The position numbers were made by a program, and so were the translations under genes. DNA of 64,000 nt. Source: an uncultured Sphingomonadaceae bacterium. GTDB lineage: Bacteria; Pseudomonadota; Alphaproteobacteria; Sphingomonadales; Sphingomonadaceae. The stretch's first letter is position 1, and every line of letters begins with the position of its first letter. Location of the stretch: positions 62,001 to 126,000 of the forward strand of contig CALLJS010000005.1 of the NCBI GenBank assembly GCA_938050045.1, read 5' to 3'. Below are positions 2,196-10,327 of this stretch, piece after piece. The notes below the pieces were generated by a model. That model was not told the DNA's origin and did no database searches. It worked only from the letters and a program-made list of their open reading frames with translations.

Positions 2196-3137
2196 ATGAA
2201 AAAATATATAGCCCCACTTATGTTATCCTTAGTGATGAGTATTTCTATGCCTGTAATGGCGCAGAGTTTCGATCATCAAGCATGGGATGATATTGTCAAA
2301 AAAAATGTTAAGCCCATTGGGCCTGGCGCGACAAGCTTTGATTATGCCAATGTACACAGCAAACATCATCAGCTAAAAACCTATTTGGAACAATTATCTG
2401 TTATCGACCAAGCAACATTTGATGCATGGTCCACCGATGAACAGCTCGCATTCCTCATCAATGCATATAATGCTTTTACAGTCGATTTAATTCTTACAAA
2501 ATATCCTAATCTCAAATCGATCCGAGAATTAGGCGGAACGTTTAAATCGCCCTGGAAAAAAAAATTTATTCCATTATTGGGTCAAAATATATCGCTCGAC
2601 ACTATTGAACATGATATGATTCGCGGCAGTGGACGTTATAATGAACCGCGCATACATTTTGCCGTAAATTGTGCTAGCATTGGGTGCCCCCCATTAATCA
2701 ACGAAGCATTTACGGGCGATACGGTGGATGCGCAGCTAGAAAAAGCAACGCAAGATTTTTTAACAGACCGCACCCGTAACTTCATCAATGGAGATAGCGT
2801 CACTGTATCAAAGATTTTTGACTGGTACCGTGGCGATTTTGAAGCGGGATGGCGCGATGCAATCGACCTTGGCGAATTTTTAGCCCTTTATGGCGATAGT
2901 CTGGGCCTTTCTGCTGAACAAAGCGAAGCCCTTGCTGCGGGTGAATATGATATAAAATTTAGCGATTATGATTGGCGTTTGAATGATGTCATGGTTCCAA
3001 AAGACACAGTTAGTGCGAGCATTTCTCCGCTATGGATTGCCAATATATATCCGATTAACGTTGGTATCGGTATTTTGATATTATTGGGTCTATCATATGG
3101 CGGATGGCGCTTAGTGAAACGCCGTAAATCAGCATAA
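2196..3137 (+). CDS. Exported DUF547 domain protein
   Basis: The 313-residue protein starts with a signal peptide (about residues 1-22, ending VMAQ). The DUF547 domain follows at about 60-230 with the signature FLINAYNAFTVDLIL and HFAVNCASIGCPPL, whose two cysteines are typical of the family. A single membrane helix near the C-terminus (about 285-305) followed by KRRKSA should anchor it in the inner membrane with the domain in the periplasm. The biochemical role of DUF547 is unknown; the fold is papain-like in some descriptions, but that is not shown here. DUF547 genes are often near rSAM-associated glycosyltransferases, which matches the genes at 3.2-9.3 kb. Confidence 0.85.
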   Translation: MKKYIAPLMLSLVMSISMPVMAQSFDHQAWDDIVKKNVKPIGPGATSFDYANVHSKHHQLKTYLEQLSVIDQATFDAWSTDEQLAFLINAYNAFTVDLILTKYPNLKSIRELGGTFKSPWKKKFIPLLGQNISLDTIEHDMIRGSGRYNEPRIHFAVNCASIGCPPLINEAFTGDTVDAQLEKATQDFLTDRTRNFINGDSVTVSKIFDWYRGDFEAGWRDAIDLGEFLALYGDSLGLSAEQSEALAAGEYDIKFSDYDWRLNDVMVPKDTVSASISPLWIANIYPINVGIGILILLGLSYGGWRLVKRRKSA

Positions 3138-3167
3138 GAGACTATAATTATAACAGAAACTATATTG

Positions 3168-3189
3168 GCCCAGCAGTGAAATGTTGGGC
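3168..3189. terminator. Hairpin between convergent genes
   Basis: GCCCAGCA pairs with TGTTGGGC (one G-T pair) around the loop GTGAAA, placed between the stops of the DUF547 gene and the converging glycosyltransferase. No strong T run follows, so it may act weakly or in both directions. Confidence 0.45.
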
Positions 3190-3238
3190 TATTATCTCAT
3201 GGAGCAATGGATTAAATAATTCATATTATATGTTTTAA

Positions 3239-5200
3239 TTAACGGAAAAAAGCCTCGCGTCCGATTACATATAATATTTTGGTGCCAGCACCCCAGACAC
3301 CGCTGATCGTTCCTGATATTTTTGAAATACCAATACGCTTGCGATAATTGGCAGGGCGTTCCAAAACCCGCATTTCATACTGTATCGCTTTCACTTGCAT
3401 TTCAATCGTCCAGCCAAAATCACGATCCGCCATTTGTAACCGTTCCAGAGCATCACGGCGTATCGCCCTAAATGGGCCAAGGTCGGTGATATTTTTTTGC
3501 CATATTAATTTTACAAGCCGCGTAGAGAGCCAATTTCCAAATCGCTGCGGTGGCGTCATTGCGCCATTTTCTATATGCCCTAAAGCGCGCGAACCAATAA
3601 CCATATCGGCATGGCCATCGATGATCGGTTGCAGCAAATTGGGGGCTTCTTCGGGTACATCTGACCCATCGGCATCAATAAAAAGAATGATATTCACATC
3701 ATCGGGCAAGGCTGCAATGCCTGCCAAACAAGCAGCACCATAGCCTTTTTGCCTCTCATTCACAATATGCGCTCCTGCGGTGATAGCATGATTGGCCGTT
3801 TCGTCCATGGACCCATTATCAGCTACGATAATTGCAGCATCTAAATGACGCAGCGATGACACGACGCTGCCAATGGAATCTTGCTCATTCAGCGCGGGAA
3901 TAACAACCCCAATCTGGGGGTGCTTTATTGGTGTAGGGGGCAGAGATATATGTGTTTCGTTGCGCCTAGATTGGATATAATCATAAATTAACGCAGCCAA
4001 TATAGCGATTATTTCAATATACCATGCTATAGGATGTACTTCAAATTCGCGCAAAGCCTCTGTGTCTAATGTGAGGCCCGTTATATAGCTTAGGGGAATG
4101 AAGCTTGCGGCAACAAAAGGCCAAATCTGGCGCGATCCAATGGCAAATGGTAATATCCAAATCATATACCAGCTATTGACGGCTGGAGCCAAAAATAAAA
4201 TAACACCAAAAATCGCCGCTAGAGGCGGAAACTCCTTATCATATGTGCGAGCATGGATGAGCATTATGACCAAAATACCGATAATGGCGGCTAATAAACG
4301 AGCAATATTTTGCGGTGCAAGGATCGAAAGCATAGCAAACCCCATTGGATTAAAGAGCCATTCATTGGCAAATGTGCGGGTGGAGTCAAAGCCTATGCTA
4401 GGCCCTAATATTATAAAATATCCATAGAGGAATGCTACTGTAATCATGGCTGCAATAAGGGCTTTTTTGGGCCAACGCAGCATTAATGGCCACGCCGCCA
4501 ATGCAATGATTTTCACGCCCGTTGCTGCGCCCCATAATATACCCGCCAAGAGCGGATGTTTGCGCGCTAACCAAATACCAGCAGCTAAGAATATGGCCAT
4601 TATCCCATCGGGGTGAATGTGAATTATTATGTCGGTTACGACCAAGGGACACCAAGCATAGAGCGCGACGTGATGCAGGGGATAACGGCGCGTTAATATA
4701 GCTATCAGCCCTATATTGATGAAGGCAAAAATAATCCGCAAGCCGATTGGATCGCTGTTAAATATAGTATATATGGCCGCAAATATAAATTGTAGAGTTG
4801 GGCCATAGATGGTCGGAACATTGGGGTTATTTACATTGTCTAAAATGGGCCATAAATGCCCTGGCACATTGGGGTTGGTATAAAATTCAGCGGGCGCTTT
4901 GCCATAAGGCGTGCCTTGTAATACCTGCCATCCATCCCAGATAAATCGGAAATAATCATCCTCATAGAGGGCAACACCAAATAGCGCGATGCCATGCAGC
5001 GTGGCTGTGATTGCCCAAAATAAACCAGAATCAAGCTGCGTTGTTTTGCGCAATAGGGCAAAGATTAATGCGCTAGAGAGCGACAAAGTGGCTATATAAT
5101 AGAGGATTGATATGTCTAAATATCGCGATATTAAAACAAGAACGGCCACACTGGTTATAGAAACCGATGCAGCCGTAATATTATATGGATTTATAGACAC
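3239..5200 (-). CDS. Membrane GT-C-like domain fused to a GT2 polyprenyl-phosphate-type glycosyltransferase
   Basis: The 653-residue protein has two halves. Residues 1-410 are a polytopic membrane region with many hydrophobic helices and an early acidic loop YEDDYFRFIWDGW, as in polyprenyl-phosphate-dependent GT-C mannosyltransferases. Residues 430-653 form a cytosolic GT2 domain (IGVVIPALNE, FIDADGSD near 509-514) like dolichyl-phosphate mannose or polyprenyl-phosphate glucose synthases. One polypeptide could thus charge a polyprenyl phosphate with a sugar and use it on the other side of the membrane. The start is GTG with no good ribosome binding site; an in-frame stop lies 25 bp upstream and no ATG is nearby. 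The exported CxxC gene precedes it by 36 bp. Confidence 0.8.
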   Translation of the reverse strand: MSINPYNITAASVSITSVAVLVLISRYLDISILYYIATLSLSSALIFALLRKTTQLDSGLFWAITATLHGIALFGVALYEDDYFRFIWDGWQVLQGTPYGKAPAEFYTNPNVPGHLWPILDNVNNPNVPTIYGPTLQFIFAAIYTIFNSDPIGLRIIFAFINIGLIAILTRRYPLHHVALYAWCPLVVTDIIIHIHPDGIMAIFLAAGIWLARKHPLLAGILWGAATGVKIIALAAWPLMLRWPKKALIAAMITVAFLYGYFIILGPSIGFDSTRTFANEWLFNPMGFAMLSILAPQNIARLLAAIIGILVIMLIHARTYDKEFPPLAAIFGVILFLAPAVNSWYMIWILPFAIGSRQIWPFVAASFIPLSYITGLTLDTEALREFEVHPIAWYIEIIAILAALIYDYIQSRRNETHISLPPTPIKHPQIGVVIPALNEQDSIGSVVSSLRHLDAAIIVADNGSMDETANHAITAGAHIVNERQKGYGAACLAGIAALPDDVNIILFIDADGSDVPEEAPNLLQPIIDGHADMVIGSRALGHIENGAMTPPQRFGNWLSTRLVKLIWQKNITDLGPFRAIRRDALERLQMADRDFGWTIEMQVKAIQYEMRVLERPANYRKRIGISKISGTISGVWGAGTKILYVIGREAFFR

Positions 5201-5236
5201 AGACGATATTTTGGCGTCTATATGCTAAAATAGCAA

Positions 5237-5566
5237 TCAGGTTTTTACACGATAGCGTTGTGACATATAATAAAGTAAATCTTCTTGATGGCTTTTCTTC
5301 AGCTTGATTTGACCATTTTTCACCTTTGTTACAGCATCTTGTGCTTGCTTGGTGGACGTAATGCCGCGTGGGAATGCACATTTGGAACAAGATAAAGACT
5401 TTTTGAATATTTTCTGCCCGCGCTGAAATGAACGCTGCTCTGGGCTTAGTTTAACGCGGGGTGAACCGCCGCTATAACCGCTGCCGCCATAACCGCCGCC
5501 GCCAGAGGCTAAGGCCGGTGACGCTACTGCAATTGCCGCTATTGTTGCTATCATTTTAATTTTCAT
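5237..5566 (-). CDS. Small exported CxxC protein, function unknown
   Basis: This 109-residue protein has a clear signal peptide (MKIKMIATIAAIAVASPALA), then a Gly/Ser/Tyr-rich stretch of about 15 residues, then a basic globular part with one CSKC motif in FKKSLSCSKCAFPRG. The layout GQKIFKKS...CxxC is reminiscent of small cytochrome c or thiol proteins, but no CxxCH heme motif is present, so covalent heme is unlikely. It could bind a metal(loid) or form a disulfide in the periplasm. It is the first gene of a two-gene unit with the membrane glycosyltransferase. GAGGA sits 9 bp before the ATG. Confidence 0.75.
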   Translation of the reverse strand: MKIKMIATIAAIAVASPALASGGGGYGGSGYSGGSPRVKLSPEQRSFQRGQKIFKKSLSCSKCAFPRGITSTKQAQDAVTKVKNGQIKLKKSHQEDLLYYMSQRYRVKT

Positions 5567-5729
5567 GATCTCATTCCTCGTCTATTAAAAACAATTAATC
5601 AATGGTCACAATCCTATTCGAGAGATATGTTTTAATGGTTACAAGCGCAGAATTTTTTATTTTATCTTGAAATCGAAGAATAAGATATTCAAGCATAATA
5701 TTATTTAATAGACCATTTAAGCGATTATC

Positions 5730-6371
5730 ATGGTGGATATGCCAGAAACTCAAAATATACGTCTTATCATATTTGCGCGTTATCCTGTTGCGGGCCAAGC
5801 AAAGACCCGTCTTATCCCCGCTGTTGGCGACGTAGGGGCGGCCCAAATTCATAAAATATTGGCGCGTCATACTGTTAACACTCTTTATAATGCTTGGCTC
5901 TCTCTGGCTAATAGCCAAATCATTATATCATTTACTGGCGGAAGTTTAGACCAATTTAAGCAATGGCTCGGCGCGGGTGATATAAGGTATGAGCGACAAG
6001 CCGATGGAGATTTATCGGAGCGACTTTTAGCCTGTTTAGACCCAGCGCCTGTGATATTTTTTGGATCGGATACACCAGATTTAACCGAAGGCCATGTGAA
6101 AGATGCAGTGAACGCTCTGCACGAATATGATATAGTCATAGGCCCTGCTTTGGATGGCGGCTATTATCTTATTGGAATGAATAGCTCTTATGAGGGGCTA
6201 TTCAAAGATATGCCTTGGAGCAGTGATGCGGTGCTCCCAACCACATTGGATCGCTGCGAGGCTATGGGACTAACGGTCAAGATGTTAGAACCATTGAGCG
6301 ATTGCGATATGCCCGAAGATTTGGTGCGCTGGCCTTGGCTTTGCGAAGCCATGAACGATGTGATATTATGA
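5730..6371 (+). CDS. TIGR04282-type glycosyltransferase (rSAM-associated transferase 1)
   Basis: The 213-residue protein matches the nucleotide-sugar transferase family named for its link with radical SAM/selenodomain or arsenosugar loci: IIFARYPVAGQAKTRL at the N-terminus, FFGSDTPDL near residue 110 and IGPALDGGYYLIG near 137. The fold is that of GT-A/nucleotidyltransferases with an acidic metal site at the SDTPDL turn. Its last codons overlap the start of the next gene (ATGA), so the two are translationally coupled. An alternative ATG lies three codons downstream at 5739. The sugar donor and acceptor are unknown; the arsenosugar role is from family naming and context only. Confidence 0.88.
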   Translation: MVDMPETQNIRLIIFARYPVAGQAKTRLIPAVGDVGAAQIHKILARHTVNTLYNAWLSLANSQIIISFTGGSLDQFKQWLGAGDIRYERQADGDLSERLLACLDPAPVIFFGSDTPDLTEGHVKDAVNALHEYDIVIGPALDGGYYLIGMNSSYEGLFKDMPWSSDAVLPTTLDRCEAMGLTVKMLEPLSDCDMPEDLVRWPWLCEAMNDVIL

Positions 6372-7096
6372 AGCTCTCTATTCTCATACCCATTTATAAC
6401 GAAGCCGCAGTGCTTCCATCGTCTATTGCCGCGTTAAGATTGCTCGAACCACAACCCGATGAAATAATATTGATTGATGGTAAAAGCGAAGATGATAGCG
6501 TTAAAATTGCTAAAAATGCTGGGCTAAAGGTCATATTATCCCCAATAAGAGGCCGCGCGGCGCAAATCAATTATGGCGTTGAAAAAGCCAGTGGAGATGT
6601 GATTTGCATTTTGCATGGCGATTCTATGCTGCCCAGCGATGGTGTTGCTGTGATGAAATCTGCCATGCTAGATAAAGGCTTGGCCTTGGCGGGATTTACG
6701 CCGCGTATAGCGGGTGAAAATGGCACGCGATGGGGTTCTACGATTCATAATTGGCTAAAAACTTGGTACACGCCTATGTTGTTTCGACCGCGTCTATTTT
6801 TCTTTCATGGGGTGCGATTACTCTATGGCGATCATGCCATGTTTTTCCGCCGAGACCATTTCAGAGCTGCAGGGGGCTGCGATGAACGTGTAGTCGTGAT
6901 GGAAGAGGCTGACCTTTGTATAAAATTAGCCCGCTATGGAAAAACCAAAATATTAATGCGCTGGGTATGGACGTCGGATCGCCGTATCGCGCAGTGGGGG
7001 CGATGGCGGGCCAATTATATCTATCTAAAAGTCGGTCTTATGTGGGCTTTTGGCGCGCGCGAACGTCTGGCAGAACATTATCCTGATATTCGATGA
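6368..7096 (+). CDS. TIGR04283-type glycosyltransferase (rSAM-associated transferase 2)
   Basis: The 242-residue protein is a GT2-family transferase: KLSILIPIYNEAAVLP at the start, DGKSEDDS near residue 38 and the HGDSM metal-binding segment near 86. It belongs to the family that usually follows TIGR04282 in arsenosugar or rSAM loci. The start chosen is the ATG inside the ATGA overlap with the previous gene; the longer frame from 6302 lies within that gene and is rejected. Its stop at 7094-7096 touches the stop of the converging arsM with no base between. It probably adds a sugar to the product made by the neighbouring methyltransferase and radical SAM enzyme. Confidence 0.88.
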   Translation: MKLSILIPIYNEAAVLPSSIAALRLLEPQPDEIILIDGKSEDDSVKIAKNAGLKVILSPIRGRAAQINYGVEKASGDVICILHGDSMLPSDGVAVMKSAMLDKGLALAGFTPRIAGENGTRWGSTIHNWLKTWYTPMLFRPRLFFFHGVRLLYGDHAMFFRRDHFRAAGGCDERVVVMEEADLCIKLARYGKTKILMRWVWTSDRRIAQWGRWRANYIYLKVGLMWAFGARERLAEHYPDIR

Positions 7097-8155
7097 TTAA
7101 CAGCAAGCCGCAGGTTCTGCTGCTTTGCTTACGCTATCCATATCATAGGGCAGCCCGCCACCGCATCCATCGAAAACGCCATAATGTTTGGAAAAATCGC
7201 CTATATATCTGAAATATTTGGCAAAGCGTGTATCGGCAAGCATTTTCCAGCTATTGCCGCAAATAGGGAAGATATGTCCAGCCTCTATGCTATGATGTTT
7301 ATCCAAAATAAAAACGCGCTCTTGGTCAATAACACCGCCTTTATAAATAACAGCCTGTCCATAATCTTCGCACTCGGGTTCTAAATCTGCAATGTTGAAC
7401 AAGCGATATGTCGAAGAGAAAAAATTTATCCCGTCTAATTTGGCTGCAATTTTATCATCGCCAATGCCCAATGGTCGGTCATTGACTAAGCGTGGATCGC
7501 CAAATCCAGATTGTTTGGCAATAGCCATAAAGTCGCCCCAATAAAGCGCACCCGATAGGCATTCACCATGCAAAATAGGGTCATTAAGTAGCGCGGCGGG
7601 GACCCGGCGATCGGAATATACATCTGAAAAATAGAGTTCGCCGCCTGGTTTTAATAATTTTTGGGCCGCGCGAAATACCGCGCCCTTGTCAGCCACAAGA
7701 TTGATGACACAATTGGAAACAATGATATCAAAGCTTGCTGCTTCGAGATCTAGCGCGTCTAATTTTTCAATATCGCCCTCGATGAAGCTGACATTTGATT
7801 GGGCATAGCCAAATTTTTTTCGGTGCCATTCGATATGATTATTGGCAATATTTAGCTGCGCAGGCGTAGCATCAACGCCAACGATGCTGCCATGTTCGCC
7901 GACCAATTGAGCGAGCAAATAAGCATCTTGGCCGCTGCCAGAGCCAAGGTCTAATATGCGAGCCCCTTCGATAGCGGCAGGAGCAACAAGTCCGCAGCCA
8001 TAATAGCGTGATTTAACCTCTTCATGAACATTTGATAATGCTTTGCGTACGCGCAATGAGGGCATGTCAGCCATGGTGCAAGCATCGGTTAGCAGATCAT
8101 CAGATCCACCCAAAACTTCACCATAATAATTTTGACTATTTTCAAGGTTCATCAT
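7097..8155 (-). CDS. arsM: Arsenite S-adenosylmethionine methyltransferase
   Basis: The 352-residue protein has a Rossmann methyltransferase core with DLGSGSGQD (residues 69-77) for SAM and the arsenic-binding cysteines expected of ArsM: Cys54 in RYYGCGL, Cys149 in VSNCVIN and Cys199 in HGECLSG, plus an extra Cys26. The tail ends in vicinal Cys351-Cys352 (PAACC), common in ArsM proteins and able to bind trivalent arsenic. ArsM transfers methyl groups from SAM to As(III), giving mono-, di- and trimethyl arsenicals in the cytoplasm. AGGAA lies 4-7 bp before two adjacent ATG codons. It diverges from the radical SAM gene over a 166-bp intergenic region with dyads and repeats. Confidence 0.93.
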   Translation of the reverse strand: MMNLENSQNYYGEVLGGSDDLLTDACTMADMPSLRVRKALSNVHEEVKSRYYGCGLVAPAAIEGARILDLGSGSGQDAYLLAQLVGEHGSIVGVDATPAQLNIANNHIEWHRKKFGYAQSNVSFIEGDIEKLDALDLEAASFDIIVSNCVINLVADKGAVFRAAQKLLKPGGELYFSDVYSDRRVPAALLNDPILHGECLSGALYWGDFMAIAKQSGFGDPRLVNDRPLGIGDDKIAAKLDGINFFSSTYRLFNIADLEPECEDYGQAVIYKGGVIDQERVFILDKHHSIEAGHIFPICGNSWKMLADTRFAKYFRYIGDFSKHYGVFDGCGGGLPYDMDSVSKAAEPAACC

Positions 8156-8193
8156 TATTTCCTAAATCTGTAAACATATATTTCTAAGCTGAG

Positions 8194-8208
8194 CTATAAT
8201 TGTTATAG
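8194..8208. promoter_or_regulatory. Perfect dyad CTATAA-TTG-TTATAG in the arsM/radical SAM divergent promoter
   Basis: A 15-bp perfect inverted repeat (6-bp arms, 3-bp centre) sits 39 bp upstream of arsM and 114 bp upstream of the divergent radical SAM gene. It is a candidate binding site for a dimeric regulator. No ArsR gene is in the window. Confidence 0.4.
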
Positions 8209-8239
8209 TCCTAACGCTGTGATATTACATTTGCATGAC

Positions 8240-8275
8240 AATAATAGCGCATCTTGATAAATAATAGTGCGTCTT
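8240..8275. repeat. Direct repeat, 16-bp units with 20-bp period, upstream of the radical SAM gene
   Basis: AATAATAGCGCATCTT (8240-8255) is repeated as AATAATAGTGCGTCTT (8260-8275), 14 of 16 identical. The 20-bp spacing is about two helical turns, as for tandem regulator sites on one face of DNA. It ends 46 bp before the radical SAM start. Confidence 0.5.
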
Positions 8276-8321
8276 ATTATATGTCCCGTAACCTTTTAAT
8301 GAAAATAACGAAATTATAAAT

Positions 8322-9305
8322 ATGTCCTCAATCATAAAGAGAGAAATTGATGCTGTATCGCCTTTTGTCGAGGCCGACTGCAAAGCGTTAAGAAGCGATA
8401 AGTTTCAGAATCCAGATTTTACCGCAACGGGAGATGCAAGAGCATCGGTTGCGATGGCGCAGTTTGAGACTCTGTGGTTCAATACAGGCACATTATGTAA
8501 TTTGGCGTGCAAAAATTGTTATATTGAAAGTTCGCCCAAAAATGATGCTCTGGTCTATATAACTCTGGACGAAGTGCGCGTATATTTAGATGAAATAATA
8601 CAAAAAAATCTTCCCATTAAGGAAATAGCCTTCACGGGCGGCGAGCCTTTTATGAATCCTGATATGATAGCAAGTATATCGCTTTGTTTGGAACGCGGCT
8701 TCAAAATTTTGGTGCTGTCCAATGCGATGCGGCCCATGCGCAGATTTGAACAGCAATTACTGGATTTACCAAAACGCAATCGGCTCACTTTTCGCGTAAG
8801 CCTTGACCATTTTACGCAGGCCATTCACGAAGAAGAACGTGGCCCTAATAGCTGGGATAAAGCGATTGATGGTCTAAAATGGCTTGCAGCTCATGATTTC
8901 CCTTTGGCAATCGCAGGACGTCATTTGCCTGGCGAGGGTCATACGGCAGCTATGCAAGGGTATGCGGCTCTATTTTCCGAAAATGATTTGCCGCTCGATG
9001 CTGCTAATCCAGCACATCTGATGCTGTTTCCAGAGATGGATGCGCGCGCTGATGTCGCCGAAATCACAACATCTTGCTGGGGTATATTGGATGTTGATCC
9101 AGCCAATATTATGTGTTCGAGCAGCCGCATGGTGGTCAAACGCAAAGGCGAAGATGCACCGCGCGTAGCGGCCTGTACTTTGCTGCCTTATGATCCGCAA
9201 TTTGATATGGGAGCAACGCTGGAAGAATCGATGCAGGATGTGAAATTAAACCATCCGCATTGTGCTAGATTTTGTGTGCTTGGCGGCGCAAGCTGCTCTA
9301 TATAA
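8322..9305 (+). CDS. Radical SAM enzyme with Cys-rich C-terminal tail, arsenic locus
   Basis: The 327-residue protein has the radical SAM cluster motif CxxxCxxC at Cys59, Cys63 and Cys66 (TLCNLACKNCYIES) and the SAM-binding TGGEPF near residue 105. A second set of cysteines (252, 265, 285, 314, 318 and 325) suggests one or more auxiliary iron-sulfur clusters or an arsenic thiolate site; the last are in CARFCVLGGASC near the end. It is not the classical arsenosugar enzyme ArsS, which has a different motif context and a DUF3641 tail. Position next to arsM and two arsenosugar-type transferases suggests it acts on methylated arsenic, perhaps transferring a 5'-deoxyadenosyl group. No clear Shine-Dalgarno precedes the ATG. 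Confidence 0.85.
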   Translation: MSSIIKREIDAVSPFVEADCKALRSDKFQNPDFTATGDARASVAMAQFETLWFNTGTLCNLACKNCYIESSPKNDALVYITLDEVRVYLDEIIQKNLPIKEIAFTGGEPFMNPDMIASISLCLERGFKILVLSNAMRPMRRFEQQLLDLPKRNRLTFRVSLDHFTQAIHEEERGPNSWDKAIDGLKWLAAHDFPLAIAGRHLPGEGHTAAMQGYAALFSENDLPLDAANPAHLMLFPEMDARADVAEITTSCWGILDVDPANIMCSSSRMVVKRKGEDAPRVAACTLLPYDPQFDMGATLEESMQDVKLNHPHCARFCVLGGASCSI

Positions 9306-9331
9306 TAGGTCGGCGCAAGCTGCTCTATATA
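9284..9331. repeat. 21-bp direct duplication across the stop codon of the radical SAM gene
   Basis: The same 21 bases, beginning CGGCGCAAGC and ending CTCTATATA, occur at 9284-9304 and 9311-9331 with a 27-bp period. The first copy encodes the final GASCSI and leads into TAA TAG; the second lies after the stops in the same reading frame. Confidence 0.9.
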
Positions 9332-9357
9332 CTTATTTGGTACATTAAACGCTTATT

Positions 9358-10227
9358 CTATGCCTTTAACGCCCGCCCCGCAACCGCGTCCAATTTTGCA
9401 ATAAGCTCTGGATTGCGTGCCGAGGGCTCGGTGATTAGGGCAAAATCTAATCCTGTATCAATCGGGCTGGCCTCTCTTTCTTTTGGCAATGAACGCATCA
9501 AATGCACGATCATATGACGGGCTTTTTCGGCATTGCTCTGTAATTGCGCGATGATGGTTTCAACCTCTACATGGGCTTCGTTTTCGCGCCAGCAATCATA
9601 ATCTGTTACCATCCCGATTAAGGCGTAAGGCAGTTCCGCCTCTCGGGCTAATTTGGCCTCTGGCATAGCCGTCATACCAATAATATGCGCCCCCCAAACA
9701 CGATATATATTGCTCTCTGCCCTAGAAGAAAATTGCGGGCCTTCCATCGCCAAATATGTCCCCCCGCGATGAACATTGGCATCCGCTTTTTCGGCGGCAT
9801 TTGCTGCATAATCAGACAGGCGTGGACATACTGGTTCTGCCATAGATATATGCGCGACAACGCCTTCGCCAAAAAAGCTTTTTTCCCGCGCAAAAGTTCG
9901 ATCAATAAATTGGTCTACAGCTATGAAATCGCCTGGGGCCATTTCTTCGCACAGCGATCCTATAGCAGAAATAGAGATTATATCAGTAACGCCAGCGCGT
10001 TTTAATATATCAATATTGGCTCGAAAATTAAGCTGGCTTGGCCCTATGCGATGGCCACGTCCATGGCGCGGCAAAAATATACATTTTATGCCTTTTATTG
10101 TGCCGCAAAGCAATTCATCTGATGGAGTGCCCCATGGGGAATCAATCTTAATCCATTGGGGGTTTTCCAGAGCATCTAGAGCATAAAGGCCCGATCCGCC
10201 AATAATACCGATAACCCATTCGCTCAT
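9358..10227 (-). CDS. mtnP: S-methyl-5'-thioadenosine phosphorylase
   Basis: The 289-residue protein is an MTA/purine nucleoside phosphorylase: IGIIGGSGLYAL at the start, the phosphate-binding PRHGRGH near residue 54, AMEGPQFSSRAES near 160 and IGMTAMPEAKLAREAEL. It splits 5'-methylthioadenosine with phosphate to adenine and 5-methylthioribose-1-phosphate. Related enzymes also use 5'-deoxyadenosine, the by-product of radical SAM chemistry. I chose the ATG at 10227 because GGAG lies 6 bp before it; the ATG four codons upstream has none. It converges on the radical SAM gene and is divergent from pabB, so it may be housekeeping, but a role in removing adenine from an adenosylated arsenical is possible. 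Confidence 0.9.
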   Translation of the reverse strand: MSEWVIGIIGGSGLYALDALENPQWIKIDSPWGTPSDELLCGTIKGIKCIFLPRHGRGHRIGPSQLNFRANIDILKRAGVTDIISISAIGSLCEEMAPGDFIAVDQFIDRTFAREKSFFGEGVVAHISMAEPVCPRLSDYAANAAEKADANVHRGGTYLAMEGPQFSSRAESNIYRVWGAHIIGMTAMPEAKLAREAELPYALIGMVTDYDCWRENEAHVEVETIIAQLQSNAEKARHMIVHLMRSLPKEREASPIDTGLDFALITEPSARNPELIAKLDAVAGRALKA

Positions 10228-10327
10228 AATTTGCTCCATCGCTCAGTGAAGCTTGGCATAGCCGTGCTGGAGTCTGGGTGCAATATTCTAATGTTCCCAT
10301 GACGTCATAATCGTTTATAGGGCTTAT

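Follow-up and report, generated by a model that had tools for sequence, protein, structure and literature searches.

A radical SAM protein distinct from ArsS probably holds the ArsS position in an arsenosugar-type gene cluster of a Sphingomonadaceae bacterium

In many marine algae and in seafood, organic arsenic is present mainly as arsenosugars. The present work concerns a gene cluster at positions 2196 to 10239 of a 64,000-nucleotide stretch of DNA (the window), taken from contig CALLJS010000005.1 of an uncultured Sphingomonadaceae bacterium (assembly GCA_938050045.1), whose draft genome comprises 2.42 Mb in 28 contigs and is 99.28% complete. In the known pathway, as described for Synechocystis, ArsS acts with the arsenite methyltransferase ArsM in the initial steps of arsenosugar synthesis (PMC8552651), ArsS being the radical S-adenosylmethionine (SAM) enzyme that adenosylates arsenic (PMC12159101). 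An arsenosugar cluster is recognised by the linkage of ArsM to ArsS; in the window, ArsM is linked instead to another radical SAM protein, named t1 here. The best reading of the cluster is arsenosugar-type synthesis with a radical SAM enzyme other than ArsS, and we consider it probable that t1 holds the slot of ArsS and would adenosylate methylated arsenic.

The label t1 was coined for the family of the window's radical SAM protein (positions 8322 to 9305, + strand, 327 amino acids (aa)), and t2 for its full-length sister family (hhalign probability 100, E = 8e-67), which forms a clade separate from t1. The absence of ArsS, claimed from the sequence alone, was borne out, as no protein of the draft genome scored above the cut-off of the ArsS model TIGR04167. 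The window protein reached 60.5 of the required 300 bits on that model, over residues 45 to 190 only, and has no DUF3641 domain; membership in ArsS was thus rejected. Its radical SAM core matches PF04055 (68.7 bits) and carries the motif C59-x3-C63-x2-C66. All 11 aligned members of the t1 family (alignment A2) keep this CX3CX2C motif together with C252, C265, C285, C314, C318 and C325, six invariant cysteines in a SPASM/twitch-like C-terminus that may bind auxiliary clusters; the one t2 row of the alignment (L071) has the same nine cysteines. No NCBIfam model (June 2026) names t1, the best being NF049973 (Rv1681-family, 88.9 bits against a cut-off of 380, aligning with residues 50 to 199 only), and the single t2 protein that was scanned, from locus L219, is likewise without a name (best 121.6 of 380 bits). 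Carriers of t2 include Nitrosomonas marina, Marinobacter zhejiangensis and Alcanivorax S71-1-4, and are mostly Gamma- and Betaproteobacteria by record title. Two genomes hold additional t1 copies: G436 has two, and the second copy in G095 (L112, contig C26) was called as an open reading frame (ORF) of 616 aa, possibly a fusion or a frame extension; matches to a metallophosphoesterase, a flavin adenine dinucleotide (FAD) oxidoreductase and VTT lie next to it or further upstream.

That t1 and t2 share the function of ArsS is most strongly indicated by the exchange of these partners beside the same ArsM. A profile scan of the genome collection with ArsM gave at least 563 relatives, of which the best 80, with flanks of up to 10 kb, constitute the named loci. 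Within the fetched DNA, 12 of these loci have ArsS, 11 have t1 (L171 as a fragment) and 8 have t2, and none of the 80 holds two kinds of radical SAM protein. The three types share their neighbours, namely TIGR04283, TIGR04282, a VTT-domain protein, a FAD oxidoreductase, a metallophosphoesterase and DUF547, the last also being matched in two ArsS clusters (L193 and L212). TIGR04282 and TIGR04283 occur together in 9/12 ArsS loci, 8/11 t1 loci and 4/8 t2 loci.

The same exclusivity was found at the genome level, for which 60 of the 80 named loci were covered; L171 and L173 (t1) lie outside these 60, yet carry the t1 label in the tree described below. Of 25 genomes carrying t1 or t2, beside ArsM in 17 and elsewhere in 8, none was found to have ArsS over its cut-off. 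Conversely, neither t1 nor t2 was found in any of 16 ArsS genomes, where the best other radical SAM protein scored 72 bits; these 16 comprise the 12 with ArsS at the locus plus Sedimenticola hydrogenitrophicus, Alcanivorax jadensis and two alphaproteobacterial genomes, G014 and G147. Among 29 further ArsM genomes, 22 have t1 (at least 428 bits), one has t2 (297 bits) and six have neither. Five of these six have ArsS on the fetched DNA (481 to 558 bits), and in the sixth, the Gemmatimonadetes metagenome-assembled genome (MAG) G442, ArsM was found but none of t1, t2 and ArsS. Overall, the 60 named ArsM genomes divide into 31 with t1, 9 with t2, 19 with ArsS and 1 with none found; no genome was seen with both kinds, the ArsS model having been run on 16 of the 31 t1 genomes. 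An ArsM tree of 72 rows requires a minimum of 10 partner changes, one of them within Alcanivorax, where S71-1-4 (t2) is sister to A. jadensis (ArsS) with a Shimodaira-Hasegawa-like approximate likelihood-ratio (SH-aLRT) support of 97. Taxonomy accounts for part of this distribution, all 31 named t1 genomes being alphaproteobacterial by title. It is not the whole explanation, because G014 and G147, which belong to the class of the window, have ArsS, and because G116, of the same class sample, and an Emcibacteraceae MAG have t2. Partner exchange, exclusivity wherever it was searched and shared neighbours thus agree with the proposal of the sequence-only reading that the place of ArsS is taken by a different radical SAM protein.

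A class-wide sample of 385 alphaproteobacterial genomes was then used to place t1 in a broader context. Of 117 genomes matching t1, two weak ones (G268 and G355) were dropped, and the remaining 115 contain, by identity, 114 t1 and one t2 (G116). By comparison, ArsS over its cut-off was present in only 2 of the 385 genomes (G014 and G147). The co-occurrence of t1/t2 with TIGR04282 is near-obligate: at E = 1e-15, a TIGR04282 match was found in 111/115 t1/t2 genomes versus 38/270 of the others (odds ratio 169, P = 1e-57, uncorrected for kinship). When TIGR04282 was required to pass its own cut-off, the figures were 86/115 versus 23/270 (odds ratio 32), and with one genome per family (137 genomes, by listed family codes) they were 39/40 versus 15/97. 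In 17 genomes, no more than 6 kb separates TIGR04282 from the radical SAM gene, against an expectation of about 0.7.

From 90 of the 115 genomes, the DNA around 91 loci was retrieved, the window being excluded; in one of these loci, L140, t1 was identified by profile. At least one ArsS-cluster gene is present in 27 of them, the counts being 16 for TIGR04282, 16 for TIGR04283, 8 for the metallophosphoesterase, 6 for the FAD oxidoreductase, 5 for the VTT-domain protein, 5 for ArsM and 3 for the methylthioadenosine phosphorylase (MTAP). TIGR04282 lies away from the radical SAM gene in 94 t1/t2 genomes; of 20 TIGR04282 loci picked by hand among these, 18 contain the TIGR04283-TIGR04282 pair, and none of the 20 has a metallophosphoesterase, FAD oxidoreductase, VTT-domain protein, ArsM or MTAP. 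The pair forms one ORF in two low-GC genomes (L317 and L318; GC, guanine plus cytosine), the fused ORF of L317 falling short of the cut-offs of both models with 114.3 and 76.3 bits. In a Devosia MAG (L311), the metallophosphoesterase and t1 are likewise fused, into a single ORF of 642 aa. The two ArsS loci of the class (L087 and L088) show the order TIGR04282, VTT-FAD fusion, ArsS, MTAP-like, TIGR04283-like, metallophosphoesterase.

ArsM itself is associated with t1/t2 across the class. A radical SAM protein of the t1/t2 kind is present in 11/11 genomes whose ArsM is a close ortholog (E < 1e-70), versus 104 of the 374 others (P = 1e-6), and in 36/45 genomes with an ArsM-like match of at least 95 bits versus 79/340 without one; both cuts were chosen after the lists had been seen.

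The following sequence of steps is proposed, in which we infer the chemistry of t1, the phosphorylase and the transferases from the genes present. ArsM would convert arsenite to dimethylarsenite. Cleavage of SAM by t1 would yield a 5'-deoxyadenosyl radical, to be added to the arsenic of dimethylarsenite, and the product would be a nucleoside of the 5'-dimethylarsinoyl-adenosine type. From position and exchange, the chemistry of t1 is most likely the same as that of ArsS. A phosphorylase would then strip the adenine, in the window possibly the ordinary MTAP, which could act on the arseno-nucleoside because As(CH3)2 resembles S-CH3. The arseno-ribose would finally be elaborated by the TIGR04283/TIGR04282 pair.

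Likenesses between t1 and ArsS extend beyond the place after ArsM and the list of partners given above. The two proteins are similar in size, share the CX3CX2C core and, as judged by eye, a C-terminal run of cysteines ending in G-[SA]-S-C, and have BlsE as the best solved-structure match. The nearest solved folds of the AlphaFold model of t1 (predicted local distance difference test (pLDDT) 85.2) are BlsE, SkfB, SuiB and DesII, and BlsE, SkfB and DesII also come on top when a true ArsS is modelled, with lower confidence (pLDDT 76.7). BlsE and DesII, radical SAM enzymes that modify sugars and carry auxiliary domains at the C-terminus, act on other substrates; identities are 13 to 19%.

Several observations weigh against equating t1 with ArsS. 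No DUF3641 (PF12345) match was found in t1 at E values up to 10 (most of those above 0.1 being dropped by the HMMER filters), whereas a true ArsS scored 178.5 bits alongside. Two invariant cysteines of ArsS, C102 and C132, are without a cysteine counterpart in t1 (SLPCY in ArsS versus SLDHY in t1), so that the active sites differ and substrate handling must do so in detail; t1 also has the extra C252. In a profile alignment, t1 and ArsS can be matched with confidence across the shared radical SAM core alone. We do not claim t1 as a whole-length homolog of ArsS: aligned alone, the C-termini gave E = 1e-3 and a probability of 22%, compared to 0.2 to 2.7% in eight column shuffles. The likeness of the C-terminal motifs was not taken as homology, because motifs of this sort are widely shared by SPASM-type radical SAM enzymes. 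No biochemical work on t1 was found. The ArsM tree, moreover, is a quick one without bootstrap in which 26/68 inner branches are weak, and its well-supported branches alone force only one change for t1, two for ArsS and two for t2.

The distribution across the class also contains points of this kind. As many as 79/115 t1/t2 genomes are without an ArsM-like match of at least 95 bits, and a single-protein ArsM search at E = 1e-10 gave a similar division (37/115 with, 78/115 without). The sequence-only reading had held that a radical SAM family occurring mostly without ArsM would speak against its proposal, and, taken literally, this is what was found. The force of the finding is weakened because a TIGR04282 match is kept in 111 of the 115 genomes and because G014 and G147, with ArsS present, gave no ArsM match either. 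A genome in which only ArsM is missing may thus still have an arsenic pathway, which could be supplied with methylated arsenic from external sources. In addition, metZ lies at most four genes downstream of t1 in 32/91 loci (window included, L140 left out; one example was confirmed by profile), and none of these 32 loci has ArsM nearby. Finally, 38 class genomes match TIGR04282 without t1/t2, and only two of them (G014 and G147) have ArsS; in the others (for example G028, G128 and G335), there may be another partner, a loss or an incomplete genome.

These data lend some weight to an alternative in which t1 belongs to an older alphaproteobacterial TIGR04283-TIGR04282 pathway whose substrate contains no arsenic and might be one of sulfur or methionine metabolism; a use on arsenic would have come about in ArsM-bearing lineages alone. 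Such a history would accommodate the many genomes without detectable ArsM and the frequent metZ, as well as locus L086, where metZ and two ORFs that we take, from their N-termini, to be metE and metF lie near t1. It is harder to reconcile with the strong association of ArsM-like genes with t1/t2, with the swapping of t1, t2 and ArsS beside the same ArsM lineage and with the occurrence of ArsS, too, without an ArsM match. Furthermore, 6 of the 32 metZ loci keep an ArsS-cluster gene: a metallophosphoesterase in L106, L118, L123 and L136, a FAD oxidoreductase in L126 and a VTT protein in L086. We regard this alternative as rather unlikely. The t1-metZ order mostly continues with apaG and folE (for example in L118, L125 and L129), an arrangement that recurs without ArsM.

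A second alternative accepts arsenic as the substrate of t1 but has the enzyme move another fragment of SAM, giving an arseno-amino acid or another organoarsenical. The model for this is ArsL of arsinothricin synthesis, a published radical SAM partner of ArsM that also makes a carbon-arsenic bond, with the 3-amino-3-carboxypropyl group; the active-site region of t1, being unlike that of ArsS, leaves room for it. As described in PMC8552651, however, ArsL has 428 aa with CX3CX2C at 194-201, the transporter ArsQ as partner and only three conserved cysteines, compared to the six further C-terminal cysteines of t1. The best 25 of 56 NCBIfam matches of t1 included no model for ArsL. Since t1 has the neighbours of ArsS (TIGR04283, TIGR04282, metallophosphoesterase, FAD oxidoreductase and VTT protein), we consider this alternative improbable. 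Chance or simple shared ancestry, with ArsM detoxifying by methylation and the remainder unrelated, might be suggested by the mixed gene directions, which form no single operon, and by the housekeeping type of the MTAP, but is very improbable given that the linkage recurs in lineages far apart, that genes are fused in two different ways and that the partners, where searched, replace one another without co-occurring. Adenosylation of methylated arsenic by t1 in the slot of ArsS thus remains the reading we prefer.

The seven genes named in the sequence-only reading were all found at or very near the coordinates it gave. ArsM (352 aa) is encoded at positions 7097 to 8155 on the - strand and matches the solved arsenite methyltransferases 5evj (329.9 bits) and 4fr0 (260.4 bits). 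The three cysteines pointed out in that reading, C54, C149 and C199, have aligned cysteine counterparts in 5evj and are invariant in 11/11 aligned orthologs; we take them to be the arsenic-binding ones. The protein is under the cut-offs of three NCBIfam ArsM models, with 150.7 of 263 bits for NF008823, 80.7 of 400 for NF038099 and 118.3 of 500 for NF040538. NF008823 at its own cut-off is passed in just 8/385 class genomes, 6 of those with t1. The nine best relatives, 69 to 73% identical, are of Sphingomonadaceae and Erythrobacteraceae types by record title.

Some ArsM genes elsewhere deserve mention in their own right. On a contig titled as a Synechococcaceae MAG (L235), ArsS accompanies an ArsM 58% identical to that of the window, which hints at transfer or misbinning. 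The ArsM of L215, from a MAG titled Klebsiella pneumoniae isolate MaE-04nov19-357 whose genome has ArsS, has an end branch of 0.71, among the longest of the tree, and the title may be wrong. ArsM-like methyltransferases with one in-frame TGA were found in L259, L260, L261 and L262 (G313, G208, G093 and G281), and further ArsM-like matches spanning one TGA in G194, G287 and a second match of G196. In the four that were read (L259 to L262), the context is IDLWT(A/S)-TGA-IAGG(L/M)PC; by eye, the TGA falls approximately at the cysteine of the ArsM GEC motif, and the SNC cysteine is a glycine. These genes are candidate selenoprotein methyltransferases.

ArsM and t1 diverge from a gap of 166 bp (positions 8156 to 8321), and gene directions in the cluster are mixed, so that it is not a single operon; a chance neighbourhood is disfavoured because the linkage is conserved in relatives. 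In G244 (L069), ArsM is likewise divergent, there from a FAD oxidoreductase-t1 pair. Promoter-like sites were not enriched (20 compared to a shuffle mean of 25.5), and the idea of a shared promoter was rejected; terminator-like sites numbered 15 compared to 8.9 in shuffles and were not used as evidence.

Of the two transferase types recognised from the sequence alone, TIGR04282 (DUF2064; positions 5730 to 6371, + strand) was confirmed above cut-off (177.8 versus 134 bits), while the adjoining gene (positions 6368 to 7096, + strand, overlapping it by 4 bp) has TIGR04283 as its best match, yet below cut-off (165 versus 182 bits). As the first resembles a nucleotide-sugar transferase (3cgx, 73.6 bits) and the second is a GT2 glycosyltransferase (GT), the pair would probably activate and attach an arseno-sugar or its aglycone.

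The MTAP gene (positions 9358 to 10239, - strand) encodes a canonical enzyme of methionine salvage (PRK08931, 455.7 bits, cut-off 437), acting on S-methyl-5'-thioadenosine (MTA). Its presence as a dedicated enzyme of the cluster is accordingly not proven. Divergent MTAP-like genes, at 272.7 to 289.7 bits on PRK08931, are found in the ArsS loci L087 and L088 (276.5 and 272.7 bits), in L079 (t1) and in L219 (t2). Those of the ArsS clusters L224 and L229 are closer to the ordinary type (PRK07432, 419.8 and 426.1 of 453 bits), and the t1 locus L169 has, besides the window, an MTAP of ordinary type (457.5 bits). The location of MTAP-like genes inside such clusters suggests that adenine is removed by phosphorolysis. 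The role of an adenine-removing phosphorylase, as put forward earlier, is therefore plausible, but the window enzyme is of the salvage type; it may have a second role on the arseno-nucleoside or be a mere neighbour.

At positions 3239 to 5200 (- strand) lies a protein with multiple membrane spans fused to a GT2 domain (residues 432 to 588; AglJ-like, 127.7 of 325 bits), the N-terminal part of which matches GT87 below gathering (19.3 of 25). Its membership in the pathway is uncertain. Among the 80 ArsM loci it is matched in L174 (711 bits) and weakly in L226 (229 bits), and the transfer to a lipid carrier that had been suggested for this fusion would draw on these two matches, with no further support. 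An exported DUF547 protein (positions 2196 to 3137, + strand; PF04784, 97.3 bits) shows, by eye, an N-terminal leader and a C-terminal membrane anchor. Between the GT fusion and TIGR04282, a small exported ORF (positions 5237 to 5566, - strand) had been missed; it is glycine-rich with a CSKC motif, matches neither NCBIfam nor Pfam models at E = 0.01, and belongs to the cluster only putatively.

Two bacterial radical SAM routes to carbon-arsenic bonds are described in PMC12159101, namely adenosylation by ArsS, leading to arsenosugars, and the arsinothricin route. In the open literature, we found no paper on a radical SAM enzyme other than ArsS in arsenosugar synthesis, which, with subscription papers outside the scope, is weak evidence of absence. 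If t1 and t2 act as ArsS does, surveys with ArsS as the marker miss the capacity of Alphaproteobacteria (2 versus 115 of 385 class genomes). Three radical SAM proteins in one slot also allow the handling of arsenic to be compared between naturally occurring enzymes, and the question of which organisms make marine arsenosugars can be put to the test.

A wider possibility, which we put forward as tentative and rather unlikely, is that t1 with the TIGR04283-TIGR04282 pair constitutes a widespread alphaproteobacterial organoarsenic pathway, extending to small, low-GC, SAR11-like genomes, that would turn methylated arsenic of seawater into arsenosugars even without ArsM. G098, G297 and G375 are genomes of 1.2 to 1.3 Mb, and the fetched stretches of the first two have a GC content of 28 to 31%, the SAR11 label being unconfirmed. 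A SAR11 strain is described as demethylating dimethylarsinate by enzymes not yet determined (PMC6426599). If this possibility is true, free-living heterotrophs would contribute arsenosugars to the sea on a large scale, so far unnoticed, and would fill a gap in the oceanic methylarsenic cycle.

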